Of a stretch of DNA of 11,302 nucleotides, positions 1 through 11,302 are shown in pieces. The stretch lies in contig JAFSAK010000133.1 in assembly GCA_017441045.1 (NCBI GenBank), positions 1 to 11,302 of the forward strand, written 5' to 3'. The notes below the pieces were generated by a model. The model was given only the letters and a program-made list of their open reading frames with translations. It ran no database searches and was not told the origin of the DNA. Position 1 is the stretch's first letter. Each line of letters begins with the position of its first letter. The position numbers were made by a program, and so were the translations under genes. Source of the stretch: Clostridia bacterium. GTDB taxonomy: Bacteria > Bacillota_A > Clostridia > Oscillospirales > Acutalibacteraceae.

Positions 1-617
1 ACACCGTGAAAGGCGCCTGCCATAAAGGGATTATCTTCGGGGGCATTACAGAAAACAACCAATTTTGCGCAACCGATACAGTCACGGTCGGCAGTTCTTA
101 CGGCGGCATCCTTAATAACTTTACCCATAAGTTTAACCGCATCCATATTTATACCCGCTTTGGTGGAGCCGATATTAACGGATGAGCAGATATTATTTGT
201 GATATCGAGGGCTTCGGGGATGGACTCTATAAGCCGCAAATCCCCCGCAGAAAAGCCCTTATGAACGAGGGCAGAATAACCGCCTATAAAATTAACGCCC
301 GTAGTGTCAGCCACTCTTTGCAAGGTTTTAGCATACATAACGGGGTCACCGCCCGAAGCGGCGGCCACCATAGCAATAGGCGTTACAGAAATTCTTTTAT
401 TTATAATGGGAATTCCATATTCGCTTTCAATATCCATACCCGTTTTAACGAGATTGCCTGCAAGACGGGTCATTTTTTCGTAAATTTTATCACAGGCAGT
501 TTTCGCATCTGAATCGGCGCAATCAAGTAGGGAAATACCCATAGTGATGGTGCGGATATCCAGATTATCCTGCCTGATCATATTTACGGTTTCCATTATA
601 TCCTTAAGATTAATCAT
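1..617 (-). CDS. UPF0210 / DUF711 (PFL-like) family protein, N-terminal part
   Basis: This reads leftward from ATG at 617-615 and stays open to the window edge, giving about 205 codons of a family usually near 450 residues, so only the N-terminal half is present. The protein opens [15 protein letters not shown], followed by [15 protein letters not shown], and later has [33 protein letters not shown] and [17 protein letters not shown]. These stretches are typical of the UPF0210 family, whose fold is related to pyruvate formate-lyase and ribonucleotide reductase. To my knowledge its biochemical function is unassigned. The ACT-domain gene lies 14 bases upstream, and this pairing is common in Firmicutes and other bacteria. 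A GAGG sits about 12 bases before the start, a loose ribosome site that suggests coupling to the gene ahead. Family assignment is firm; function is unknown. Confidence 0.92.
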
Positions 618-631
618 AAATTTACTCAACC

Positions 632-904
632 TCAAATACGGTGCATAGAATTGAAAATATCTTCGTGCATAACGTGAATTTCGAGCCCCATTTCGCGACC
701 TTGCTTCTGAAGATTATCAGAAAATTCGCTAAAGGAACAAGAGAGGGCGGATATATCCGTTAGCATAACCATACAGAACATATCCTCTAAAACCGACTGT
801 GTAATATCAATTATATTAACATTATATTCAGCGGCTGACGCGCTGATTTTAGAAATGATACCCACCGAATCTTTGCCGATAACCGAAATAACTGTTTTTT
901 TCAT
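632..904 (-). CDS. ACT-domain regulatory protein (UPF0237 family)
   Basis: A 90-residue protein consisting of essentially one ACT domain. The start [20 protein letters not shown] is the classic beta-alpha-beta opening (G-K-D-x-V-G-I), followed by [23 protein letters not shown] domains bind small ligands, often amino acids, and act as regulatory modules; GcvR is the best known relative of the stand-alone type. The ligand here cannot be read from sequence. The ATG at 904-902 overlaps the stop of the upstream membrane protein by one base, and the UPF0210 gene starts 14 bases after its stop. The three genes therefore look translationally coupled, and a shared role with the UPF0210 protein is likely but unproven. 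Length matches the family, so it appears complete. Confidence 0.9.
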
Positions 905-1359
905 TATTTTTCACTCTTTTCTTCTTCGTGTTTATGAACCTCATAATCTGCGGCCTGAAGGGCTACTCGCATTGCTCTTACAATTAAAGCCATACAGATT
1001 GCGGCGCCCCCTGCAATATAGAAGGGCATATAGAAAATACCCGCAACGAGCATTATGATACCTGCTAAAAGGCAACTATTGGAAATGGCGAGAAGGTGTC
1101 CTGTATTTTCAAATTCGAAAACTTTACCCGCTAAAATATTTTTAAGAAGTTTCATCAAAGAGAAAAGCGTAATTGCCGCCAAGGGTACACAAGGGTAGGT
1201 GGCGAGCATAATTGTAGCAAAAAGGTCGGCAGAGCGGCCGCGCACCTCAACATACCATCTTATAAGCCAAGGCAGTGCTACGGTAAATACAACTAATAAA
1301 ACCATAAAAACATAGGTTGCTATAAGGGCAATTTTAGCCGAGCGTTTATAATTTTTCAC
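904..1359 (-). CDS. DUF2975-family four-helix membrane protein
   Basis: A 151-residue protein with four predicted membrane segments at about residues 9-34, 46-69, 93-111 and 113-131, and a charged cytoplasmic tail (HKHEEEKSEK). The motif GKVFEFENTGHLLAISNSC at about 78-96 matches the conserved loop of DUF2975 proteins, which is my reason for the assignment. These proteins are often encoded next to a small XRE-type regulator of the YozG kind; none is seen here, although the window covers both sides of the gene. The start is GTG at 1359-1357, chosen because a GAGGTGA ribosome site (plus-strand 1366-1372) lies about six bases ahead. It is first in the leftward operon and sits directly behind a near-consensus promoter. 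The function is not known. Confidence 0.78.
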   Translation of the reverse strand: MKNYKRSAKIALIATYVFMVLLVVFTVALPWLIRWYVEVRGRSADLFATIMLATYPCVPLAAITLFSLMKLLKNILAGKVFEFENTGHLLAISNSCLLAGIIMLVAGIFYMPFYIAGGAAICMALIVRAMRVALQAADYEVHKHEEEKSEK

Positions 1360-1391
1360 TGGAAGTCACCTCGCAAAATTTTACAAATATC

Positions 1392-1420
1392 ATTATACAC
1401 CAAAGTTATCCCTTTTTCAA
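1392..1420 (-). promoter_or_regulatory. Sigma-A promoter for the leftward operon
   Basis: Read on the minus strand, TTGAAA (plus 1415-1420) and TATAAT (plus 1392-1397) are separated by exactly 17 bases. This is a near-perfect housekeeping promoter. Transcription would begin near 1385, leaving a leader of about 25 bases before the GTG at 1359. It serves the DUF2975, ACT and UPF0210 genes and points away from the phage-like cassette. Confidence 0.85.
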
Positions 1421-1424
1421 GTCG

Positions 1425-1453
1425 GTGAAAGGCACTTTTTGGCGGAGTATATT
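1425..1453 (+). promoter_or_regulatory. Weak candidate promoter for the virion cassette
   Basis: GTGAAA (1425-1430) and TATATT (1448-1453) are spaced by 17 bases and lie about 50 bases ahead of the first cassette gene at 1502. The -35 box matches the consensus at only four of six positions, so this is a weak candidate. It is nevertheless the best rightward candidate in the short space between the leftward promoter and the cassette. It would lie back to back with the strong leftward promoter. Confidence 0.3.
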
Positions 1454-1459
1454 AAATGT

Positions 1460-1477
1460 ATCGGAAGAAAATCCGAT
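1460..1477. repeat. 6-bp inverted repeat in the cassette leader
   Basis: ATCGGA (1460-1465) and TCCGAT (1472-1477) are perfect inverted arms around a six-base A-rich loop. They lie between the candidate -10 box and the ribosome site of the first cassette gene. This could be an operator half-site pair or a small leader hairpin. At this length chance is a real alternative. Confidence 0.3.
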
Positions 1478-1501
1478 GAATTTTATGACGGGAGGTTATC
1501 T

Positions 1502-1768
1502 ATGAAGAAAAAAGATGAATTTTTCCAAAGTTCACTTCGCGCTCTACTTAACGAGGAGTTATCCGAGGCGGAAAAGCAATCTCTTAAAGATGAGGGCTAC
1601 CTACTTAAAAAGCCAAAAAGAAAAGCCGCAGTTATGATAGCGCTCTATAAGAAGGCATCTTCGGGTGACCTTGCTGCCATAAAGGAACTTCGCAGCATCG
1701 CGGGTATGGGCGGCGAAATTCCAAAAGAGACGAGGGCGGTGACCATTATTGATGATATCGCCGATTAA
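1502..1768 (+). CDS. Putative phage terminase small subunit / packaging protein
   Basis: An 88-residue charged protein beginning MKKKDEFFQSSLRALLNEEL. I chose the ATG at 1502 over an upstream TTG at 1439 because GGGAGG sits eight bases ahead of it. The middle (KPKRKAAVMIALYKKASSGD, then LAAIKELRSIAG) resembles short proteins encoded just before large terminases in clostridial phages, where a helical segment ending in a GD-x-x-A-I-K-E-L type pattern recurs. No clear helix-turn-helix is visible. The role as DNA-recognition subunit of the packaging motor therefore rests mainly on position: its end overlaps the start of the large terminase gene by 17 bases. It is the first gene of the rightward operon. 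It could instead be an unrelated phage accessory protein. Confidence 0.5.
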   Translation: MKKKDEFFQSSLRALLNEELSEAEKQSLKDEGYLLKKPKRKAAVMIALYKKASSGDLAAIKELRSIAGMGGEIPKETRAVTIIDDIAD

Positions 1769-3053
1769 GATAAGCGGTGTTGCAGGTGAAGGGTACGATG
1801 AATTCTGGAATTGCAAAAAGCGGTACCGAGTTTTAAAAGGAGGCAAGGCCTCAAAAAAGAGTACCACCACCGCCCTCAATTTTATATATCGCATAATGCG
1901 GTATAAAGACAGTAACCTCCTTGTAGTGAGGCAGGTTATGAACACCCATAGGGATAGTACCTTCGCGCAACTCAAATGGGCCCAGAGTCGACTTGGAGTA
2001 TCACACCTATGGAACAACACCGTATCGCCTATGGAGATGACCTATATCCCAACGGGACAAAAAATAATATTTCGCGGATTTGATGATGTTCTTAAACTGG
2101 CATCTACCACAGTGCCTAAAGGGTATCTGAATTTTGTCTGGATTGAGGAGGCCTTCGAAATAGCAAACGAAGCGGATTTTGAAAAGCTTGACCTATCTGT
2201 GCCAAGAGGCACTCTCCCCGATGGTCTTTTCAAGCAAACAACCCTCACCTTTAACCCTTGGAGCAGTGAACACTGGCTCAAAAAACGCTTTTTTGATACT
2301 GCGCAATCGGATACTGCAACCTTTTCGACCAATTACCTCATAAATGAATTTTTGGATGAAACCGATAGGGCGGTATTTACTAAAATGAAGCGCCGAAATA
2401 TGAGGAAGTATCAGGTGGCGGGGCTTGGAAACTGGGGGATTTCAGAAGGACTTGTCTTTGAAAATTGGCAGATAGGAAGGCCGCAAATCAAAACAGAGGA
2501 GCAATATAAATGGAAAAACTTCTTCGGTCTTGATTACGGTTATACCAATGACCCTACGGCATTTATTGCTTTTCGCGCCAACCCTATTGATAAGATTCTT
2601 TATATCTATGATGAGTTTTATCAAAAAAGAATGCTCAACTGTCATATTGCCGAGGAAATTAAAAAACGGGGCTTTGCCAAAGAGCGTATAAGAGCCGATA
2701 GTGCCGAGCCGAAATCCAATGATGATTTACGGCGCCTTGGCATACAAAGAATTATGCCTTCCGTTAAGGGTAGCGACAGTATTCTGAACGGAATATCGGG
2801 TATAAACGAGTATGAGATTTATATAGATGCTCATTGCGTTAATACCATAAAAGAATTTTCTTCCTATGTTTATGATGATAAAAATTTAAAGAACGGAATG
2901 AAGATGCCTAAGGATACGGATAACCACCTTTGCGATGCACTCAGATACGCTTTTTACGATGTTAAATTTTTTCATCCGCAGAAAGAAGAAATTGAAATTA
3001 AAAGAGAAATGGGAATCAGCCCTAAAGATTTCAGTAAAGGATGGGATATATGA
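1752..3053 (+). CDS. terL: Phage terminase large subunit, PBSX type
   Basis: A 433-residue DNA-packaging ATPase and nuclease, full length for the family. The ATPase half shows a variant Walker A (GGKASKKS, about residues 30-37), a Walker B region FVWIEEA (about 128-134) and a coupling-type TFNPW segment. The nuclease half has the expected acidic residues: D261 in GLDYGYTNDP, D316 in RADSAEPKSND and D395 in DNHLCDALRYA. No catalytic residue appears lost, so the motor looks intact. It would load the prohead through the portal encoded downstream. The start is ATG at 1752, overlapping the upstream gene; a TTG one codon earlier is possible. Its stop overlaps the next ATG in an ATGA arrangement. 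An intact motor argues against a long-decayed prophage. Confidence 0.95.
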   Translation: MISPIKISGVAGEGYDEFWNCKKRYRVLKGGKASKKSTTTALNFIYRIMRYKDSNLLVVRQVMNTHRDSTFAQLKWAQSRLGVSHLWNNTVSPMEMTYIPTGQKIIFRGFDDVLKLASTTVPKGYLNFVWIEEAFEIANEADFEKLDLSVPRGTLPDGLFKQTTLTFNPWSSEHWLKKRFFDTAQSDTATFSTNYLINEFLDETDRAVFTKMKRRNMRKYQVAGLGNWGISEGLVFENWQIGRPQIKTEEQYKWKNFFGLDYGYTNDPTAFIAFRANPIDKILYIYDEFYQKRMLNCHIAEEIKKRGFAKERIRADSAEPKSNDDLRRLGIQRIMPSVKGSDSILNGISGINEYEIYIDAHCVNTIKEFSSYVYDDKNLKNGMKMPKDTDNHLCDALRYAFYDVKFFHPQKEEIEIKREMGISPKDFSKGWDI

Positions 3054-3232
3054 GTTTTATAAGTTTTTTAACGGTAGCCGCGGCCGCATTTTTGCTCGGT
3101 TTTTTGCTTGGATTTACATTTGGCGGAAAAGGTGGCGGAGTCAAAGCCCCATTTAAACCTTTTGTAAAGCACACAAGCATTAGCCGTGAATTTGAAAACT
3201 TTTTAACCTATGATGGCTCGGTACAAAAATAA
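3050..3232 (+). CDS. Small single-pass membrane protein of the virion cassette
   Basis: A 60-residue protein starting at ATG 3050, within the terL stop region (ATGA overlap), with AAAGGA about eight bases upstream. A longer frame from 3041 lacks such a site. Residues 3-25 form a hydrophobic, glycine-containing helix, followed by a GGKGGG linker. The C-terminus carries SREFENFLTYDGS (about 45-57), a tail motif I associate with small proteins found beside terminase genes in clostridial phage-like loci. Translation is probably coupled to terL. The function is unknown; anchoring packaging or assembly at the membrane, or a holin-like role, are possibilities that the sequence does not decide between. 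Confidence 0.6.
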   Translation: MSFISFLTVAAAAFLLGFLLGFTFGGKGGGVKAPFKPFVKHTSISREFENFLTYDGSVQK

Positions 3233-3259
3233 AATAGCACTGAATTTAAGGAGTTTAGT

Positions 3260-3910
3260 ATGGAAAAATCAGAAAGTTATAACTGTGAACAACCTGTGTC
3301 GCAGGAAGAAAATACGATTTCGAAAACAGGGGAAACCATACCTCTTTCTTCGGACGAAGGTATTAAAATTCCTATTAAATTTAATAAAGAGGAAAGGGAA
3401 CTTTCCGTAGAGGAAGCGGCATCCCTTGCTCAAAAAGGTCTCAAATACGATATGATAACCAAGGATTTTGACCGACTTCGCGTTTTAGCGCAGCAAAACG
3501 GTAAAAGCGTAGGTGAGTTTCTTTCGATGGTTGAAGGCAACCTTAAAAAAGAACGACGTGATGAAATTTTATCAAAGTGCGGCGGCAATGAGGAACTTAC
3601 GGATAATTTTATGAGTATGGAGGAAAAATTAGCCCACGATGACGGACAACTGGGGGAATTAAAAGAATTTTTCCCCGAAATTTCCGCATACGAACAATTG
3701 CCCGACGAGGTTGTTTTGCGAAGCCGCGAAAAAGGCAGCCGAATACTTGATGAGTATTTGAGGCATCTTCACTCCCTTAAAATGCAAAAGAGGGATGAGG
3801 AAGAAAAGAAAAAAGAAGTAAATAAACATACTCTGGGATCTTTAAAAACCGAAGATACGGGAACGGTTGACCCCGTTCGTAATATGTTTTTAAAGGGAAT
3901 CTGGGGATAA
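3260..3910 (+). CDS. Putative capsid scaffolding protein
   Basis: A 216-residue, highly charged, helix-rich protein immediately upstream of the major capsid gene, which is the usual place for a scaffold. AAGGAG lies nine bases before the ATG. The segment IKFNKEERELSVEEAASLAQ followed by KGLKYDMI (about 37-65) resembles scaffolds of clostridial siphophages and podophages, and the rest is rich in E, K and R with predicted helix and likely coiled coil. The C-terminus (DPVRNMFLKGIWG) is short and hydrophobic, as expected for a capsid-binding tail. It would direct assembly of the procapsid and leave before or during packaging. No protease motif is visible. Placement and composition support the call; sequence identity to a named family is not certain. 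Confidence 0.62.
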   Translation: MEKSESYNCEQPVSQEENTISKTGETIPLSSDEGIKIPIKFNKEERELSVEEAASLAQKGLKYDMITKDFDRLRVLAQQNGKSVGEFLSMVEGNLKKERRDEILSKCGGNEELTDNFMSMEEKLAHDDGQLGELKEFFPEISAYEQLPDEVVLRSREKGSRILDEYLRHLHSLKMQKRDEEEKKKEVNKHTLGSLKTEDTGTVDPVRNMFLKGIWG

Positions 3911-3935
3911 ATTAATTTGATAAGGAGAAAATTTT

Positions 3936-5120
3936 ATGTCTATTAATTCAATAGAAAATGCTGCAAGATATTCTGATGAACTCGATATTTTGTTTTCGCA
4001 GAAGAGTGCAACAGGTTTCTTTGCAGATAATGCGCTTACCACCAAATTCGTAGGCGCAAAAACCGTTATTATTCCCGATGTGGATTTTCAGGGACTTGCC
4101 GATTATGACCGCGATACAGGTTTTACCCGCGGCGCCATAACCGTAAGCAACGCTTCCTATACAATGGCTATGGACCGCGCCCGTTCTTTGCAGATTGACC
4201 GCGAAGATATGGATGAAACCGGCATTGCCAACCTTGCGGGTAAGATTTTGGGCGAATATGTTCGCACCAAGGTTGTTCCCGAATGCGATGCCTATGTTAT
4301 TTCTAAACTTGCCGGTCTTGCCGCAACAAGAGCCAATCTCGTTGATGGTGATATAAATAAGCCCTTTGAGGCACTTTGCAACCTTATTAACGAAGTGCAG
4401 AGCGTAGTTGGTTTTGATGGAGAACTAGTAGCATTCCTTGATAGTTCAATGTATGCGGCCCTTATAAATTCTGCCGAAATTTCACGTATGATAACCGTAA
4501 GTGATTTCAAGCAGGGCGAAGTTAATCTTAAGGTTAAATCGCTAAATGGTGTTGCCATTATTCCCGTAGTTAACGAGAGAATGAAGACAAGTTACACCTT
4601 CAATAACGGCGCGCAGGGCGGTTTTAAACCCGACCATAATGCCCGTGAAGTTTATATGCTTGTTTGTCCTAAGTCGGCGGCTCACCTCGTAAAGAAAACC
4701 GAGCAGATGCGAATTTTCACCCCCGAACAGAATCTTGATGCCGATGCATATAAGTTCGATTACCGCATTTACTATGATGTATTTGTAAAGAAGAGCGGAC
4801 TTGACAGTATCTGGGCTTGGATTGCTCCTAAAGTTACAGTTACTGCAGAGCCACAGAGCATCAATGTTACGATGGGCGAAAGTGATGAAACCCTTACCGT
4901 AACCGCAACCTGTGACGGCGGCGCGATTGGTTATCAGTGGTACTCTTGTAAGGATGAAAACGGTGGAGGCGCCGTGAAGATTGCCGATGCAACCGAAGCG
5001 CAGTTCACTCTCCCTGCTGACCTTACCGCAGGCACCCACTACTACTTTGCTAAAATTACGGTAGATGGCATTCCCGCAAAGGAAAGCGCTGTTTGCTGTG
5101 TAACTGTGGAAGAAGTTTAG
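3936..5120 (+). CDS. Major capsid protein with C-terminal Ig-like domain
   Basis: A 394-residue protein with a strong AAGGAG site. Residues 1-297 resemble major capsid proteins of clostridial phages. They start with SIENAARYSDELDILFSQ, contain DYDRDTGFTRGAI and DREDMDETG, and close with EQMRIFTPEQNLDADAYKFD and YRIYYDVFVKKSG. I take this as an HK97-fold shell protein. From about residue 299 a second domain begins (VTVTAEPQSINVTMGE, then LTVTATCDGG, YQWYSC, LTAGTHYYFAKITVDG), ending in VTVEEV. This has the strand pattern and central tryptophan of a bacterial Ig-like domain. Such domains typically project from the shell and can bind glycans or cell surfaces. The gene lies between the scaffold and an intrinsic terminator, consistent with high expression. 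Confidence 0.86.
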   Translation: MSINSIENAARYSDELDILFSQKSATGFFADNALTTKFVGAKTVIIPDVDFQGLADYDRDTGFTRGAITVSNASYTMAMDRARSLQIDREDMDETGIANLAGKILGEYVRTKVVPECDAYVISKLAGLAATRANLVDGDINKPFEALCNLINEVQSVVGFDGELVAFLDSSMYAALINSAEISRMITVSDFKQGEVNLKVKSLNGVAIIPVVNERMKTSYTFNNGAQGGFKPDHNAREVYMLVCPKSAAHLVKKTEQMRIFTPEQNLDADAYKFDYRIYYDVFVKKSGLDSIWAWIAPKVTVTAEPQSINVTMGESDETLTVTATCDGGAIGYQWYSCKDENGGGAVKIADATEAQFTLPADLTAGTHYYFAKITVDGIPAKESAVCCVTVEEV

Positions 5121-5133
5121 TTTAAATTTATGG

Positions 5134-5161
5134 GAGCCGCTTTTAAAAAAGCGGCTCTTTT
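5134..5161 (+). terminator. Intrinsic terminator between capsid and portal genes
   Basis: The arms GAGCCGCTTT and AAAGCGGCTC (5134-5143 and 5148-5157) form a 10-bp stem with a four-base loop, followed by TTTT. It sits 13 bases after the capsid stop and 35 bases before the portal start. There is no room for a clear new promoter between them, so the downstream genes probably depend on partial read-through. This would lower portal output relative to capsid. Confidence 0.8.
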
Positions 5162-5196
5162 ACAACAAAAAACTTTGAGTACCGGGGAGGTAGAAA

Positions 5197-6666
5197 ATGA
5201 ATCTTGAACCTAAACATATATATAATGAATATTTAAACGGAGTTAATTTTAAAGAGGCGCTCGGAAGCAAAGGGCTTTATGAACAGAGTAAAATCAACGA
5301 GCGTTTTTATATCGGTGACCAATGGTACGGCGCAAACTGCGGAAATGATCGCCCGCTCGTGCGATACAATGTTATAAAACGAATCGGGGATTATAAAATC
5401 TCTCAAATTATTTCGGCTCCAACTTCGGTTAAATTTTCGGCAGGCGGTTTTGCCGCCTCAAATAAAATTAATAAGGGAAATATAAAAAGCAGAGAAATCC
5501 TTAAAAATAAGGATGGTTTTGAAGGAAAAATCAACGAGGAAGAAATTAATCTTCTTATGCCCGTTCTTGAGGATTACAGAAAAACCGTTTCCCATAGAGT
5601 TTCCCTTGATTCGCTTCTGGTTTCCGTTCTGAAAAAGGCGTTCATAAGCGGCACGGGAGTTCTTTACACCTATTGGGATAAGGATGCAGATGCCGATAAT
5701 TTCGGGGATATAAATTGCGAAGTTTTGGATATCGGTAATGTTTATTTTGCCGACCCATACTGCACCAATATACAAATGCAACCGTATATTATTGTCGCAA
5801 GTGAGCTGGATGCGGATTCTCTGCGAAAAGAATTGGGTGAGAAAAAGGGGCGAAACCTAAAGGCCGATAAAAACGGCAAGGTTTTGGTGCTTACTAAGTT
5901 TTATAAGTCGGTCACCGCGAAAGGCAAATCCACCGTTAAATGCGTGAAGGTTACTGAAAACTGCGTCATAAGGGAAGAATTTGATACTAAACTTACTCGC
6001 TATCCGCTGGCATCTATAAGTTGGGAAGAAAAGGATGGAATTATTTATGGCGAAAGTGAGATTACCTATCTTATTCCCAATCAGATTGCCATAAACCGAA
6101 TGATAACGGCAAATGTATGGTCTGCTATGACTATGGGTATGCCTATGATGGTGGTAAATGGGGATACGGTAAATGCCGATATCACCAACGACCCGGGACA
6201 AATAATCAAGGTCTATGGCACGAATGAGGATGTTTCGGGAGCCATTAAATATGTTACTCCTCCTGATTTTTGTAGTAATCTTACGGGTAGTGTAAACGAA
6301 CTTGTAACCAATACCCTGACACAAAGCGGAGCCAATGAAGTAGCCCTCGGAGATAGCAGAGCGGATAACGCGGCGGCTCTTGCTACGATGCTAAATGCCG
6401 CTACTTTACCGCTACAACTTTTAAAGGATAAATACTATAGATTTTTAGGTGAACTTTCACTTATCTGGGTTGATTTCTGGTTTACCCATTACGGCAACCG
6501 TTCGCTTAAAATCGAAGATGAGAGCGGTATATGGTATATGCCCTTTGATGCGGGAAGATATGCGGATATTATCTGTTCTGCGAAGGTGAAGGCGGAGGAT
6601 ATGAATACGGGCGAAACCGCAGAAACAGTAAATATGCTTACAATGCTTTATGAAAAGGGCGTTTAA
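5197..6666 (+). CDS. Phage portal protein (reading frame ends early)
   Basis: A 489-residue open frame with GGGGAGG before the ATG. The N-terminus (RFYIGDQWYG, then RPLVRYNVIKRIGDYK) and the central part (SISWEEKDGIIYGESEITYL, then IPNQIAINRM) match portal proteins, the dodecameric ring at the capsid vertex through which DNA is pumped. The later NEVALGDSRADNAAAL and LSLIWVDFW segments also fit. The frame stops at TAA 6664-6666, right after MLYEKGV. The expected C-terminus continues in the -1 frame for 32 codons to TAG 6762-6764; a full product would be about 522 residues. Either programmed frameshifting or a one-base loss explains this. An insert-like lysine/asparagine-rich stretch (about 90-118) is also seen. 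The portal lies after the capsid gene, opposite to the usual phage order. Confidence 0.85.
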   Translation: MNLEPKHIYNEYLNGVNFKEALGSKGLYEQSKINERFYIGDQWYGANCGNDRPLVRYNVIKRIGDYKISQIISAPTSVKFSAGGFAASNKINKGNIKSREILKNKDGFEGKINEEEINLLMPVLEDYRKTVSHRVSLDSLLVSVLKKAFISGTGVLYTYWDKDADADNFGDINCEVLDIGNVYFADPYCTNIQMQPYIIVASELDADSLRKELGEKKGRNLKADKNGKVLVLTKFYKSVTAKGKSTVKCVKVTENCVIREEFDTKLTRYPLASISWEEKDGIIYGESEITYLIPNQIAINRMITANVWSAMTMGMPMMVVNGDTVNADITNDPGQIIKVYGTNEDVSGAIKYVTPPDFCSNLTGSVNELVTNTLTQSGANEVALGDSRADNAAALATMLNAATLPLQLLKDKYYRFLGELSLIWVDFWFTHYGNRSLKIEDESGIWYMPFDAGRYADIICSAKVKAEDMNTGETAETVNMLTMLYEKGV

Positions 6667-6764
6667 GTAAGCTGCAACTTATAAAGAGGTTGCCCGATGA
6701 AATCATAGCCGATAAGGAAGAAATCCTTGAGGAGTTAAATAAGGAGGCCAAAAATGAAGGGTAG
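6654..6764 (+). other. Portal C-terminus in the -1 frame, with slippery heptamer
   Basis: The heptamer A AAG GGC at 6654-6660 fits the X XXY YYZ rule in the portal reading frame. Slipping back one base gives GRLSKLQLIKRLPDEII and then ADKEEILEELNKEAKNEG, ending at TAG 6762. This is a charged, helical tail of the kind expected at the end of portal proteins. A stem of seven pairs including one G-U (6674-6680 with 6687-6693) lies 13 bases downstream, somewhat farther than typical stimulators. The -1 frame has a stop at 6651-6653, so the shift must happen between there and 6664. A single lost T in the TTT run at 6662-6664 would instead give GVLSKLQ, and fits the family at least as well. Confidence 0.7.
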
Positions 6765-7104
6765 CGGAATATTTGATAATGCAATGAAACTTTTGGGTTA
6801 TACCGATTCAAGCGGTGAAATTCAGGATAGCACAGGATTAAAAGCAAGGGCCACGGCCGCTATAAACCGAATTATTGCAGATTTGAAACTTAATATTTTC
6901 ATAGAAAAACTAACCGATGAAATTTCTATTTCACAAAGCGGGGAAGATGCCCTTATATACGGTACTGCCATGCTTTTGGCCCTTTCGGATAACGATGGGA
7001 GCAAAAATCAACTTTTTGCAAGTATTTATAATGCCAAAAGAAGCGCCTTTCGGGGCAATAAAACCTTCGTTAAGGATAACTTGCCTGTAGCAAACGAGGT
7101 GTAG
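6754..7104 (+). CDS. Putative head-tail connector / adaptor protein
   Basis: A 116-residue protein with a perfect AAGGAGG at 6741-6747 and ATG at 6754. The start overlaps the -1-frame end of the portal by 11 bases, which supports that extension being part of the portal gene. Helical segments around residues 26-50 and the segment GEDALIYGTAMLLALSDNDG followed by NQLFASIYNAKRSAF (about 63-98) resemble small neck proteins in clostridial phages that bind under the portal. The role would be to extend the portal channel and dock the next neck or tail component. Identification rests on position, size and this helical pattern, not on a named catalytic motif. The next gene begins three bases after its stop, so the two are likely coupled. 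Confidence 0.55.
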   Translation: MKGSGIFDNAMKLLGYTDSSGEIQDSTGLKARATAAINRIIADLKLNIFIEKLTDEISISQSGEDALIYGTAMLLALSDNDGSKNQLFASIYNAKRSAFRGNKTFVKDNLPVANEV

Positions 7105-7107
7105 TTT

Positions 7108-9207
7108 ATGAAATACGGCAATATTAAAAGTGAAATGCAAAAGCAGTTCCGTATAGGAGGTCTTTTCGGCGGAGTAAATCTTAAGGATGAAAAGTTTATT
7201 GAAAAGAACGAATTAAGTGACTGTAAAAATTTATGGTTTAAAAACGGTGCCCTTCGCACAAGAAGTGGAATAAGAGCATTAGAAAATAGCGTCATCAGTA
7301 AAATTGATGAATATTCCGAGTGCGTTTGGCCGTTTAAAATGACGGGAAGTTCGGTTTATATTAAGGATGAGAAAAAAGCCATTGCATATATGGTCGATGG
7401 CGATTATATGTCCTATGAACTATTGAGGGTTTTCTTCGTAAGTGATAACGGAAGTTTGGAAGAAACGGCTGCTATTCGTTTGCAAAGGACAAGTTCTGAG
7501 GTTTTTTATAGATTTTCCAATATTATGTTTTTCAACGCTTCTTCTACTACGGGCGGCGGTGTTTATGCCTTTGTTACCGTAAGGTCGGGAAGCGAAACGG
7601 TTTACCGTATATATGAAATCACCGAAAACTTTGATGGGTGGACAGAACTCGGAGTAACCGATTGCTATGTGCCGATTATTTATATGAATGGCAGAGGCAA
7701 TAAGTATGCCGAAGCCGAGTCGGGAACTATGTTTTATAATGCCAAACCCACCGAGCCAGAAGCTATTAATATGCTTAATCCTAAGTTTAATGCATATTTT
7801 ACTACCGACGGCGTATCAGGGACCTTTAAATTGCCCATTTCTGATATTGATGCCAATTTCGTAGAATGCAAAATTTATATTACACCTACCGAATATCTCA
7901 GATGGCTTGTAGAACCGGAATATGATAATACCATTCTTCTTTATGACGGTCATACCGTTGCCTTCAGAATCGATAGAGCAAAGGGAATCTTCAGTTTCAC
8001 CGAGGGACAAAAGGAATTTTTATGGCCATATATGTCGGGTTACGGTGGCAACAATATCGAGATAACGGCATATAAAACCATCCCTGATGCTTGGGGTAAA
8101 ATAGTAGGCGCCAATAGGTGCATAAGTTATAACGGAAGAATGTATTTCTGCGATAACGAATTTAGTGTCAATGAAATTTATTCCTGCCGAAAAACCGCGC
8201 CCCTTTATTTCCCGACCAATGCCAAGGTGGCAGTGGGGGATAGAACGGCGCCTATTACGGCTATGGGAATTGTTTGCAATAAATTTATCGTATTTAAACC
8301 TACCGAAATATATAAAATCAATGTTACGGTAGGCGATGTCTATTCGCCCGATGGTATCATATCGGGCGCAAAGGCGGGATTTTTGCATAATGATACTCTG
8401 ACTGCTACGGCGGTACATTCCTTTATCGGTTGCGATTGCCCCGATACCCTTCGCAACTGCTCTAACCGTCTTGTTTGGCTTTCTTCAGCGGGTAAGATTT
8501 ACACCCTCGCCACGACTACATACGGCAAGGAAAATAATATTTATGAAGTGTCTTCAAATATCGAAAACTTTCTTGACTATTATAGTGAAACCGCGCTTAA
8601 AAAGGCGTATGCCGTTGATATAGACGGATATTATATGTTAATACTAGGCGATAAAATGGCGGTTATGGATTATAGAATAAAGGATTTTGGATTTCCTTAT
8701 AAATATGCCAATCCCAATGAAAACAACGGTCAAATCGCTTGGTATTTCTGGGAACACAAAATCGGTGGAAGTATGGTTTCCGCCGATAAGGTAAATAAAA
8801 ATGTTGTCTTTGCTTGCAACAGTAAAAATCTAAAATTTCAGTATATTGCTATGTTGTCGGGTGAAAAGGATAAAGTTATAGAACAGAACGATAGCGGCGA
8901 AATATCATTTAAAGAATGTGATATTGAGGGAAGGGTTACTACCGCATTTACGGATTTTGAAAGTATGGATACTTTAAAAACCATAAATAAAATTCATATT
9001 GGTTTAGAGCCCGCTTCCGATATCAAAATAGCGGTATCGGGGGATGAAAACAGAGGTGAAGTTATTATAAGACCAAAAACAACGCGCTACGAGGTAACAC
9101 CTATAATTATCCCCATAAGAAAAACAAACCGACTTAAAATTTCTCTCGAAAGCAAGGATAGATTTGCGGTGGGCGGCATATTAATTAATTATACGCCCAT
9201 AGGTTAA
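7108..9207 (+). CDS. Large nozzle/stopper-like beta-rich virion protein
   Basis: A 699-residue, beta-strand-rich protein, the longest in the window. GAGGTG lies six bases before the ATG. The N-terminal pattern FRIGGLFGGVNLKDEKF, ELSDCKNLWFKNGALRTRSG (about 14-54) is of the type found at the start of podovirus tail-tube-B, nozzle and DNA-stabilising proteins, where a few N-terminal strands precede a propeller-like body. Repeated short strands with aromatic residues follow. The C-terminus carries TINKIHIGLEPASDIKIAVS and RFAVGGILINYTPIG, a compact beta domain. It would close the filled head and form a short nozzle. No membrane segment or signal peptide is evident. An alternative is a tail or receptor-binding protein. 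The fold assignment is inference and should be tested by structure prediction. Confidence 0.5.
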   Translation: MKYGNIKSEMQKQFRIGGLFGGVNLKDEKFIEKNELSDCKNLWFKNGALRTRSGIRALENSVISKIDEYSECVWPFKMTGSSVYIKDEKKAIAYMVDGDYMSYELLRVFFVSDNGSLEETAAIRLQRTSSEVFYRFSNIMFFNASSTTGGGVYAFVTVRSGSETVYRIYEITENFDGWTELGVTDCYVPIIYMNGRGNKYAEAESGTMFYNAKPTEPEAINMLNPKFNAYFTTDGVSGTFKLPISDIDANFVECKIYITPTEYLRWLVEPEYDNTILLYDGHTVAFRIDRAKGIFSFTEGQKEFLWPYMSGYGGNNIEITAYKTIPDAWGKIVGANRCISYNGRMYFCDNEFSVNEIYSCRKTAPLYFPTNAKVAVGDRTAPITAMGIVCNKFIVFKPTEIYKINVTVGDVYSPDGIISGAKAGFLHNDTLTATAVHSFIGCDCPDTLRNCSNRLVWLSSAGKIYTLATTTYGKENNIYEVSSNIENFLDYYSETALKKAYAVDIDGYYMLILGDKMAVMDYRIKDFGFPYKYANPNENNGQIAWYFWEHKIGGSMVSADKVNKNVVFACNSKNLKFQYIAMLSGEKDKVIEQNDSGEISFKECDIEGRVTTAFTDFESMDTLKTINKIHIGLEPASDIKIAVSGDENRGEVIIRPKTTRYEVTPIIIPIRKTNRLKISLESKDRFAVGGILINYTPIG

Positions 9208-9231
9208 TTAAACTACGCCAAAGGAGATAAT

Positions 9232-10329
9232 ATGAAACGAGCCGCAATTCTTTGCCTTTGCATTTTGCTGTTTGTTTGCGGTTGCCAAGAAAACAAAGGC
9301 CAAGAGAGAATAAAAGATGATAACAGTATCTATCATAAAGGGGTATGGGTAACCTACGGAGAACTTAACGGTATGCTTGCATCTGATTTCAAGGATGAAT
9401 TTTCAAAGGTTATAGAAAAATGCAAAGAAAAGGGCATAACCGATATTTTTGTTCATACAAGAGCTTTTTGCGATGCCTATTACCCATCCTCACTTTTTCC
9501 GATGGCTGAAAGTGTAAAAAGCGCAGAATTTGATATTTTGGAGTTTATGGTCGAGTCGGCGCATCAAAAAAACATACGGTTTCACGCCTGGATCAATCCC
9601 TATAGGGTGAGAACGGCGGACAATAATATTCAAAATATAAATCAAGAAAGCCCCGCGTATAAGTGGGGCTTATCGGAAGAACTCCTTGTAACAGGAAGCG
9701 GAATTTATCTTAATCCCGCTTCCTATAAGGCAAGGATACTTGTAACCGATGGGGTAAGGGAAATACTTAATACCTACGCCGTTGACGGCATACATTTTGA
9801 TGATTATTTTTATCCAATGGACCTAAATCAAGAAGATATATCCTCTTATCAGGAATACTGTGCTTCTACCGAAAGCCCCGTTTCAATAGAGGATTGGCGC
9901 AGAGGTAATGTGAATGCCCTTATCAGCGGGGTATATACGGCTATAAAATTTATAAATAAGGATATAATTTTTAGCGTAAGTCCCGCGGCGGATATTGAAA
10001 AAAACTATAATTGCCGTTATGCAGATGTTACAGTTTGGGGAGAGAGCGGCTGCGTTGATTGGATAATCCCGCAACTCTATTTCGGTTTTAATTATCCCGA
10101 CTCTAAATTCTGTTTCAATAATCTTCTGGATTCTTGGAAAAGGGAACTCAAAAGCAGCAAGGCGAAACTTTTAATAGGTCTTGCAAGTTATAAGGTTGGC
10201 ACCCAAACTATGCCCGATGCTGCCGAGTGGATTTTAGGTGAAGAAATAATTAAAGCCCAAGAGAAAATATGCGAAGAAGATGAAGATATCTACGGCCATC
10301 TGTATTTTTCTTATTCCTACATAAAATAA
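9232..10329 (+). CDS. GHL10/DUF187-type glycoside hydrolase lipoprotein
   Basis: A 365-residue lipoprotein. A basic N-terminus and hydrophobic core end in the lipobox VCGC with the lipidated cysteine at 18, so it should be anchored outside the membrane. The rest is a family-10-like (GHL10, PF02638) barrel: GVWVTYGELNGML near residue 38, FHAWINPYRVRT, VDGIHFDDYFYP (D185, D190, D191) and VDWIIPQLYFGF (around 276-286), ending in HLYFSYS. The E. coli relative DigH (YddW) cleaves peptidoglycan glycan strands stripped of stem peptides. The same substrate is likely here but not shown. It lies 24 bases after the virion cassette with its own AAGGAG and no terminator between, so it is probably co-transcribed. 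It could equally be a host gene next to the insertion point. Confidence 0.85.
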   Translation: MKRAAILCLCILLFVCGCQENKGQERIKDDNSIYHKGVWVTYGELNGMLASDFKDEFSKVIEKCKEKGITDIFVHTRAFCDAYYPSSLFPMAESVKSAEFDILEFMVESAHQKNIRFHAWINPYRVRTADNNIQNINQESPAYKWGLSEELLVTGSGIYLNPASYKARILVTDGVREILNTYAVDGIHFDDYFYPMDLNQEDISSYQEYCASTESPVSIEDWRRGNVNALISGVYTAIKFINKDIIFSVSPAADIEKNYNCRYADVTVWGESGCVDWIIPQLYFGFNYPDSKFCFNNLLDSWKRELKSSKAKLLIGLASYKVGTQTMPDAAEWILGEEIIKAQEKICEEDEDIYGHLYFSYSYIK

Positions 10330-10364
10330 TCGGCTTAACGGTTTTCCGTTAAGCCGATTTGTTT
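10328..10364. terminator. Bidirectional terminator between convergent genes
   Basis: A perfect 14-bp stem (10328-10341 with 10346-10359) with a TTTT loop begins on the stop codon of the lipoprotein gene and ends five bases before the stop of ilvE. T-rich sequence follows on the plus strand, and A/T-rich sequence flanks the other side. It therefore likely ends both the rightward cassette transcript and the leftward ilvE transcript. Confidence 0.88.
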
Positions 10365-11302
10365 TTAATCGCAAACCTTGGTTATCCAATTGAAGTCATC
10401 TTCAATTTTGCCCCATTGGATACCGGTAAGATTATCGTAAAGTTTTTGTGTCAGTTCCCCAATTTTGTTATCGCAAACGGTATATTCTTTACCTTCATAG
10501 AAAAGATTGCCGATGGGCGAAACAACGGCGGCGGTGCCTGTGCCCCAGGCCTCCTCTAAAAGACCGTTTTTAGCGGCATCAAAGAGTTCATCAACCGAAA
10601 TCTGTCTCTCCTCAACCTCATAGCCCCAACTTTTAAGCAGTTGAATGCAGGATTTTCTTGTAATACCGGGAAGAACGGAACCCATAAGCGCGGGGGTTAC
10701 GATTTTGCCACCGATTTTGAACATAACGTTCATAGCGCCAACCTCTTCGATATATTTACGTTCAACACCATCAAGCCAGAGCACCTGAGTATAGCCATTA
10801 TCTTCTGCTTTTTGGCCTGCCCGTAAGCTCGCGGCATAGTTGCCTCCGCATTTTGCTTCACCGGTTCCGCCTCTTACTGCGCGAACATCGGTAGATTCAA
10901 TGGCGATTTTAACGGGGTTGAGTCCCTCGGCATAGTAAGCGCCAACGGGGGAGCAGATAACCGCAAAAACGGCGTTTTTAACCGCGTGAACTCCAAGATG
11001 GGGATCATTTCCGTAAAGGAAGGGGCGGATATAAAGTGAAGTGCCCTCGCTTTTCGGTACCCAATCTTTTTCGAGTTCAACGAGGGTTTTTATAATATCC
11101 AATGCGCCTTCGGGGTCTAAAGTAGGAAGACAAAGACGGGCGGCCGAATTATTAAGACGCTTAACATTTTCTTCGGGTCTAAAGAGCTGAATTCCGCCTC
11201 GTTCGTTTCTATACGCCTTAAGTCCCTCAAAGACCTCGGCACCGTAATGAAAAACTGTGGATGCGGGGTGGGTAGGCAGGGGGCCAAAGGGAACTATGCG
11301 GG
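10365..11302 (-). CDS. ilvE: Branched-chain amino acid aminotransferase, C-terminal part
   Basis: This reads leftward into the window from beyond the right edge. About 311 codons are visible and roughly 30-45 N-terminal residues are missing. The enzyme moves the amino group between leucine, isoleucine or valine and 2-oxoglutarate using pyridoxal phosphate, in the cytoplasm. Visible hallmarks are VFHYGAEVFEGLKAYR, RPEENVKRLNNSAARLC, the Schiff-base lysine in GTGEAKCGGNYAASL, LWLDGVERKYIEEVGAMNVM and the late EAWGTGTAAVVSPIG. The pattern is that of the larger, BCAT-type class. A methionine-equivalent TTG at 11102 is internal, since the frame stays open and homologous upstream of it. It ends at a hairpin shared with the convergent lipoprotein gene. 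It is an ordinary host gene and marks the right border of the phage-like region. Confidence 0.95.
   Translation of the reverse strand, partial: RIVPFGPLPTHPASTVFHYGAEVFEGLKAYRNERGGIQLFRPEENVKRLNNSAARLCLPTLDPEGALDIIKTLVELEKDWVPKSEGTSLYIRPFLYGNDPHLGVHAVKNAVFAVICSPVGAYYAEGLNPVKIAIESTDVRAVRGGTGEAKCGGNYAASLRAGQKAEDNGYTQVLWLDGVERKYIEEVGAMNVMFKIGGKIVTPALMGSVLPGITRKSCIQLLKSWGYEVEERQISVDELFDAAKNGLLEEAWGTGTAAVVSPIGNLFYEGKEYTVCDNKIGELTQKLYDNLTGIQWGKIEDDFNWITKVCD

Follow-up and report, generated by a model that had tools for sequence, protein, structure and literature searches.

A short-tailed virion cassette of uncultured gut Clostridia that resembles a gene transfer agent

We have analysed an 11,302-nucleotide stretch of DNA from an uncultured Clostridia bacterium (contig JAFSAK010000133.1 of assembly GCA_017441045.1, positions 1 to 11,302; hereafter the window), in which a compact cassette of virion genes stands among genes of the host. 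We consider it probable that this locus is cluster I of a podovirus-like gene transfer agent (GTA), or else a very GTA-like domesticated particle, of uncultured gut Clostridia. A sequence-only reading of the same DNA had proposed a domesticated particle locus, and this proposal is supported by the recurrence of the cassette, by ratios of nonsynonymous to synonymous substitution rates (dN/dS) below 1, and by a cassette tree that largely follows the host tree. As that reading had described, eight consecutive virion genes on the + strand (frames at 1502-9207, overlapping or at most 87 bases apart) lie between DUF711, ACT, DUF2975-like and aminotransferase genes of the host. The set comprises the following genes, the ninth being discussed further below:

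1502..1768, + strand, TerS-like (small terminase) gene of 88 amino acids (aa), named by its position before TerL and by conservation
1749..3053, + strand, TerL (large terminase), ATPase and RNase H-like nuclease (Pfam Terminase_3 2.1e-48, Terminase_3C 9.7e-26)
3041..3232, + strand, small hydrophobic protein of 63 aa (small membrane protein), conserved in place
3260..3910, + strand, probable scaffold, assigned from its position before the capsid gene and from conservation
3936..5120, + strand, major capsid protein with a probable C-terminal immunoglobulin (Ig)-like domain (phrog_422 7e-72, residues 3-298)
5197..6666, + strand, portal (phrog_156 1.5e-26)
6754..7104, + strand, probable head-tail adaptor of 116 aa, assigned from position and conservation
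7108..9207, + strand, tail nozzle of 699 aa, assigned from the fold match of its AlphaFold2 model
9232..10329, + strand, GHL10 cell-wall enzyme with an apparent lipoprotein signal by eye (GHL10 1.9e-46)

The portal is of the P22-like kind (Pfam P22_portal 2.4e-05, just under the cut-off), and a search of PDB sequences with its alignment gave no match. The 699-aa nozzle protein fell into no Pfam or PHROGs family; its AlphaFold2 model (predicted local distance difference test score, pLDDT, 88.6) matched the nozzles T7 gp12 and P22 gp10 in the PDB with a Foldseek probability of 1.00. Against a library of viral structures the same model matched proteins of short-tailed phages, the top match being an uncharacterised protein filed as Siphoviridae, and a distant tblastn match led to structural proteins of Bacillus phages. 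In the capsid, residues 294-392 gave weak Ig-like and Hoc-like matches (0.0016, 0.0024), and the capsid search of PDB sequences returned weak matches only, chiefly antibody and decoration-protein chains. The 63-aa hydrophobic protein, for which a profile was made from 44 relatives, was without a match in Pfam and PHROGs. Across the ten frames of the region that were searched against these two databases, no match to an integrase, repressor, replication, tape measure, fibre, holin or endolysin family was found, so that the absence of life-cycle genes from the locus, as first described, stands, and the combination of integrase, repressor and replication genes expected at the locus of a functional temperate prophage was not seen in these frames.

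The cassette is not confined to the window. A scan with the portal alignment, using one genome per species, yielded 282 stretches that encode relatives, and we took the best 80 of these 282; they come from metagenome-assembled genomes, mostly labelled Clostridia, Oscillospiraceae or Ruminococcaceae bacterium and many of them from herbivore guts. The order TerL-(scaffold)-capsid-portal-(adaptor)-nozzle is found in 58 of the 80 loci, a set that contains prophage-like loci (e.g. L089, L092, L100; here and below, L numbers denote loci and G numbers genomes). By genus, family and order we mean groupings of the genome collection used, the genus being that of the nearest relative. A portal relative occurs in 63 of the 70 genomes of the genus (as a single match in 51 of the 63), in 67 of 300 genomes of the family and in 135 of 394 of the order, only six of the latter with E <1e-150; since all of these genomes are drafts, the absence of a portal match is uncertain.

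The chromosomal site recurs as well. The nearest locus, L026 from a roe deer colon, has the same neighbours as the window on both sides, and a DUF711 gene lies 4.2-6.8 kb upstream, on the opposite strand, in 12 of the 63 portal-bearing genomes. The gene set thus recurs across species with a shared neighbour, which is what the sequence-only reading had suggested looking for. DUF711 and portal stand on one contig in 18 genomes, and in six of these the arrangement is different; the cassette has therefore moved in other lineages. G699 (L055, L205) has DUF711 downstream of GHL10 rather than upstream of TerS, a local rearrangement. In the window, the host neighbours are:

3..635, - strand, DUF711-family gene, partial, matching the L026 gene (DUF711 6.9e-198)
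632..904, - strand, ACT-domain gene (ACT_6 7.9e-14)
904..1359, - strand, DUF2975-like gene (DUF2975 0.00033, under the curated cut-off), recurring at the site
10365..11300, - strand, class IV aminotransferase gene, partial, of branched-chain type by eye, matching the L026 gene (Aminotran_4 8.9e-33)

The G+C content is 41% in the cassette, 42% in the left flank and 48% in the short right flank. The flanks of eight loci encode 82 proteins, of which we scanned nine from L026 and 59 others from the remaining seven loci. Pfam gave host families on the nine frames around L026, two of the nine being unmatched; on the 59 others, the 25 commonest of 83 Pfam families belong mostly to host metabolism and transport, and the 25 PHROGs families listed, out of 45, are chiefly transporters and unknowns and include one antiterminator-type match.

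Inheritance of the cassette is mostly vertical. For the trees, 30 genomes were picked by hand; 28 gave RpoB, the very short RpoB of G665 was dropped, and of the resulting 27 rows 24 were common to both trees. Over these 24 genomes, the host RpoB tree and the cassette tree share 9 of 21 splits, compared with at most 3 in 2000 permutations of the labels, and the host and cassette distances are correlated with a Mantel r of 0.848 (at most 0.512 in 5000 permutations). The cassette tree thus largely follows that of the host.

The cassette genes are also under purifying selection, as the sequence-only reading had proposed checking. In three species pairs with mostly unsaturated dS (L051-L054, L033-L034, L056-L057), dN/dS is far below 1: 0.027-0.050 for TerL, 0.006-0.064 for the capsid, 0.030-0.077 for the portal and 0.032-0.065 for the adaptor, with somewhat wider ranges for the nozzle (0.085-0.186), GHL10 (0.087-0.201), the scaffold (0.052-0.242) and TerS (0-0.17). 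Between the window and L026, dS is mostly saturated, and the ratios of 0.06-0.18 obtained where computable are merely indicative.

A further feature concerns the small terminase. Two cassette TerS proteins were tested and gave no helix-turn-helix (HTH) domain in Pfam up to E 1, whereas all seven prophage-type TerS proteins tested carry a DNA-binding domain (six PF13022, 1.4e-15 to 2.4e-19; one Terminase_2, 3.7e-12). The HTH-less form is conserved across many species. In a profile comparison, residues 44-83 of the cassette TerS align with only the C-terminal half of the prophage TerS (probability 66.8); the AlphaFold2 model of the window TerS has four helices (pLDDT 77), and a fold search with it found no significant match in the PDB. 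Loss of the DNA-binding domain has been proposed, in a study of RcGTA, as a feature of GTA-type small terminases (PMC6854486).

The prophage-type loci used for this comparison are podovirus-like, belong to the same genus (L199 with L209; L197, L198, L203) and have homologous TerL, small protein, scaffold, capsid, portal, adaptor and nozzle genes in the same order as the cassette, with small frames upstream. They differ from it in their HTH-bearing TerS, in a shorter capsid and, in G696, in a nearby integrase (1.6e-18) and S24 repressor (1.1e-26); relatives of this repressor are present in L197, L198 and L203, and G696 carries a cassette as well as the prophage. The sequence-only reading had named the same genes inside a full prophage as an outcome that would speak against it, and this was found only in part. 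A prophage with integrase and repressor does occur in the genus, but it belongs to a different lineage, in which TerS carries a DNA-binding domain. Capsids are 386-411 aa long in 59 of 66 members of the cassette set (five of the other seven come from prophage-like loci) and 295-303 aa in six of seven prophage-type loci. In the window, the C-terminal capsid extension with the weak Ig-like matches is encoded at 4818-5120, and it is absent from six of the seven prophage-type capsids. Two prophage-type loci have a frame of 1142 aa (L197:8393-11818) or 911 aa (L203:7869-10604), together with a second, smaller frame, between capsid and portal; the sister locus L198 is without them. In the TerL tree, the cassettes form one group of 49 rows and one of 8, and prophage-type rows are placed both between these groups and next to them. 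The forks are partly weak, so that one or more domestication events are possible.

The sequence-only reading had ended the locus at the nozzle. Its eight genes stand, but the GHL10 gene at 9232-10329, which it placed outside, usually belongs to the set. The gene starts 24 bases past the nozzle on the same strand, and a GHL10 gene comes directly after the nozzle in 35 of the 52 related loci that extend 1.3 kb or more downstream, at several chromosomal sites and with a gap of -77 to +60 bases; the unit therefore measures about 8.8 kb, including the cell-wall enzyme. Across the genus, 44 of the 63 portal-bearing genomes have GHL10 at a distance of 2.4-2.9 kb past the portal; among the other 19, some loci stop at a contig edge and others are without GHL10. 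The GHL10 gene also adjoins the DUF711 group in genomes that have no cassette, which would suit a plain flanking host gene, but we rejected this explanation because it follows the nozzle at other sites too. The protein matches the structure of Cwp19 (5oq2) with an E of 8.2e-45. Cwp19 is a lytic transglycosylase of Clostridioides difficile that acts in stationary-phase autolysis (PMC6016235). It has the GHL10 domain in common with the window protein but is a surface-layer protein, and the available text of that paper mentions no link to a particle operon. In L032 and L038, the genes behind GHL10 encode a small membrane protein, a holin and an endolysin (L032: Holin_SPP1 2.6e-21, phrog_435 1e-43). 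The relation to Cwp19 and these neighbours therefore suggest a likely role of the GHL10 enzyme in particle release.

Fibre and lysis genes, whose absence the sequence-only reading had noted, are indeed missing from the window locus, but in the genomes of relatives both stand at separate loci. These include islands of fibre, endolysin and holin genes, examples of which were run against Pfam and PHROGs. In L081, L093, L097 and L103, genes for a fibre-like protein, an amidase endolysin, a small protein and a holin come after the nozzle (in L097 the fibre-like protein has weak PHROGs matches and the holin matches Phage_holin_5_2 at 2.2e-11). Within the window's subclade, the nearest endolysins are on other contigs, with E <1e-20 in 9 of the 12 genomes that have the DUF711 site; a fibre-like gene stands closely before such an endolysin in seven genomes (G002, G006, G008, G665, G666, G701, G705), and five of the seven have a small holin behind it. 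The parts seen in L256 are an r1t holin and an Amidase_3 domain accompanied by CW_7. A sigma-70 region 4 protein precedes the endolysin in four genomes of another subclade, three of which also have the holin. This protein, of 172-181 aa, stands directly before the endolysin in L264 (9401-9940), L265 (10444-10959), L268 and L281, Pfam having been run on L264 and L265; it is a possible regulator of the particle system.

The N-terminal domain of the fibre-like proteins matched phrog_19695 in all seven proteins tested (5.1e-10 to 2.1e-18), and six of the seven also match tail or tail-fibre families, partly through collagen-like repeats; these matches favour their reading as fibres. The domain occurs in 47 of the 70 genomes of the genus, namely in 45 of 56 with a cassette-type portal and in 2 of the 14 others (Fisher p 7.8e-6, uncorrected for kinship and with the grouping made by hand). 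For this grouping, seven genomes (G684, G685, G688, G689, G691, G692, G694) were set aside, after the data had been seen, because portal length and context marked them as prophage-type or left them unclear, G688 being the least certain. At 16 of 20 places the fibre domain stands without other genes matching particle or lysis profiles, and two have a second fibre-like frame. Examples are upstream of hrcA and dnaK (L293), after a gene with a GMP synthase domain (L302), and after argininosuccinate lyase and a transporter (L303); neighbours in L253-L262 were named by eye from the translations. We infer that the separate fibre and lysis loci belong to one system with the cassette.

The definition of a GTA that we used lists six features (PMC9662315): caudoviricete-derived proteins that form caudovirion-like particles, encapsidation of mostly random host DNA, an endogenized genome often spread over multiple loci, a GTA genome too large for the head, mostly vertical inheritance with co-diversification with the hosts, and delivery of the encapsidated DNA to other cells. 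Three of the six can be recognised from sequence here. Caudoviricete-derived particle proteins are indicated by the profile and fold similarities of TerL, capsid, portal and nozzle; full endogenization by the host flanks, by the lack of relatives of one integrase query in 58 loci and by the separate fibre and lysis loci of relatives; and mostly vertical inheritance with co-diversification by the 24 genomes in the trees, with G721 as a clear exception. Particle formation, random packaging, lysis and delivery are inferred. In some cells, the operon would build small capsids around scaffold and portal, and the terminase pair would fill them with host DNA without a specific start site, as we propose because the cassette TerS is without the HTH found in the related prophage TerS. 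Adaptor and nozzle would then form the short tail that closes the particle. The wall of the producer would be opened by the GHL10 enzyme together with an endolysin-holin module encoded elsewhere, and a fibre encoded elsewhere would recognise the recipient.

The closest described system is the pair FpGTA I and II of Faecalibacterium (PMC12946183, Nat Commun 2026, January), which its authors call the first GTA with podovirus-like morphology. According to that report, FpGTA forms particles of about 40 nm without identifiable tails that hold about 9 kb of DNA, has a second operon for fibre and lysis, and was found in 12 Faecalibacterium genomes but in neither Gemmiger nor Subdoligranulum. It resembles the window system in that TerS, TerL, portal, scaffold and capsid are encoded together in a stand-alone operon (of about 10 kb), the proteins are of short-tailed phage type, the host is a relative that also lives in the gut, TerS has no obvious DNA-binding domain, and fibre, holin and endolysin are encoded by a separate operon. 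The dispersed layout seen here would by analogy parallel FpGTA II and be as expected of a GTA. The two appear to differ in gene order, which to judge from the accessions RCH50849.1 (capsid) and RCH50851.1 (portal) would be portal-scaffold-capsid in FpGTA and is scaffold-capsid-portal in the window; moreover, the available text of PMC12946183 mentions no GHL10 gene, which the window set usually has.

In its apparent gene order, FpGTA I resembles a group of portal-first cassettes from the same order as the window more than it does the window type. A 16S probe pattern for Faecalibacterium matched none of the 70 genomes of the genus and none of the 394 of the order, and the comparison with FpGTA is one of published descriptions. 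Two portal-first cassettes (L180, L181) have a portal homologous to that of the window (27% identity) and nozzle matches; by eye, their frames include no integrase and an ftsK-like neighbour. They differ in the order TerL-portal-scaffold-capsid-adaptor-nozzle and in giving no GHL10 match. L181 was considered as a possible Faecalibacterium locus, an assignment we rejected, the named relatives of its portal being Butyricicoccus and Agathobaculum. Portal-first cassettes are also seen in L178, L182, L183 and L186, and in 129 of the order's 394 genomes the sole portal match is a weaker one of this distant type. One portal-first relative and one TerL fragment came from two short records of human faecal phages (L283, L284). 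RcGTA of Rhodobacter capsulatus has a long-tailed particle and a host that belongs to a phylum other than that of the window. Its likeness to the present system lies in a TerS that appears to be without the N-terminal DNA-binding domain (PMC6854486), and in vertical inheritance and genes at several loci, both part of the GTA definition (PMC9662315). In the literature covered, open-licence papers chiefly on GTAs, we found no report of the window-type family.

Several observations weigh against our interpretation. The evidence base is sequence. The host and cassette trees differ in 12 of 21 splits, G721 is clearly misplaced between them, and several forks are weak. The TerS assignment is based on position and the weak profile match mentioned above, and GHL10 is absent from 17 of the 52 loci. 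In the window's nearest relative, G001, no strong endolysin match was obtained, and the neighbours of its two fibre hits are frames of 1070 aa and 2204 aa at contig ends, a prophage-like setting, so that these hits may belong to prophages. G709 has no cassette and carries a set of two fibre genes, endolysin and holin (L273). One endolysin-type match appeared among the 25 PHROGs families listed, out of 45, for the 59 flank proteins. No integrase relative was found in the 58 loci with a single query, the G696 integrase, while proteins like the S24 repressor were found in four of them, with strong matches in the prophage-like loci L089 and L100 and weak ones, which may be LexA-like, in L061 and L072.

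Signs of loss belong to the same side of the balance. In G683, G684 and G709, the DUF711, ACT and GHL10 genes (in two of the three also DUF2975) are found with no cassette between them. Relatives lacking the locus, which the sequence-only reading had named as part of an outcome against it, thus do exist, but because these three form one RpoB clade nested inside the carriers we read them as loss and rejected an ancestral empty site. Among draft assemblies, G663 retains TerS, a truncated TerL and GHL10, in G664 most of the portal, adaptor and nozzle is gone, and in G707 the nozzle is split; assembly errors may be the source of these defects. Losses and truncations together indicate that the system is being lost in places within the window's subclade. 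The window itself has a portal frame of 489 codons that ends 33 codons earlier than a portal from another assembly (P0111, 522 residues), to which it is identical over all 489 residues. The sequence-only reading had noted the break at the portal end, and P0111 implies that an intact form exists in a very close strain. The early stop may reflect a strain difference, a mutation or an error in the sequence; the copy of the cassette in the window may be impaired.

Such defects are what a decaying prophage remnant that still looks intact would leave, and the losses and truncations in G663, G664, G683, G684, G707 and G709, the short portal of the window and the same-genus prophage with a homologous virion module all agree with this view. 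We nevertheless judge it very unlikely, since neutral decay fits poorly with a portal in 63 of 70 genomes and an HTH-less TerS conserved across many species, with largely congruent host and cassette trees, and with dN/dS well below 1 between species; decay may be under way in single species, that of the window included. A satellite or capsid-forming island that moves by itself with a helper phage would explain why the locus has a head and packaging module but no genes for fibre or lysis, and related prophages are present in some of the same genomes, such as G696. Satellites of the phage-inducible chromosomal island type have their own integrase and regulation in addition to a packaging module. 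The window gave no integrase or regulator match, the 58 loci no relative of the G696 integrase, and the chromosomal position shared in 12 genomes and the co-divergence with the hosts also speak against an island, which we regard as highly improbable.

The same sequence evidence would fit a domesticated particle, empty or filled with host DNA, that serves killing or competition in the manner of PBSX and not gene transfer, a use that the authors of FpGTA left open for their own system (PMC12946183). We think this unlikely: the strong purifying selection on packaging motor, portal and nozzle and the difference in TerS, which bears on the choice of DNA, point to a DNA cargo, and none of the nine genes of the cassette is toxin-like or a contractile tail part in Pfam and PHROGs.

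Returning to the GTA interpretation, we lean slightly towards the more specific view that the cassette represents a new short-tailed GTA family that has co-diversified with a genus-level clade of gut Clostridia, with GHL10 in the head operon, scattered fibre and lysis genes and, in some species, a sigma-factor-like gene by the lysis genes. To our knowledge, GTAs with known genes outside the Alphaproteobacteria are few. If the view is correct then, together with FpGTA and the portal-first cassettes, it would make GTA-type exchange a common trait of these gut bacteria and not a peculiarity of one genus. The occurrence within one genus of a cassette TerS without and a prophage TerS with the HTH would offer a direct test of how a packaging motor becomes unspecific. 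Should the family indeed make particles, gut Clostridia would have a widespread and long-lived form of gene exchange under host control.

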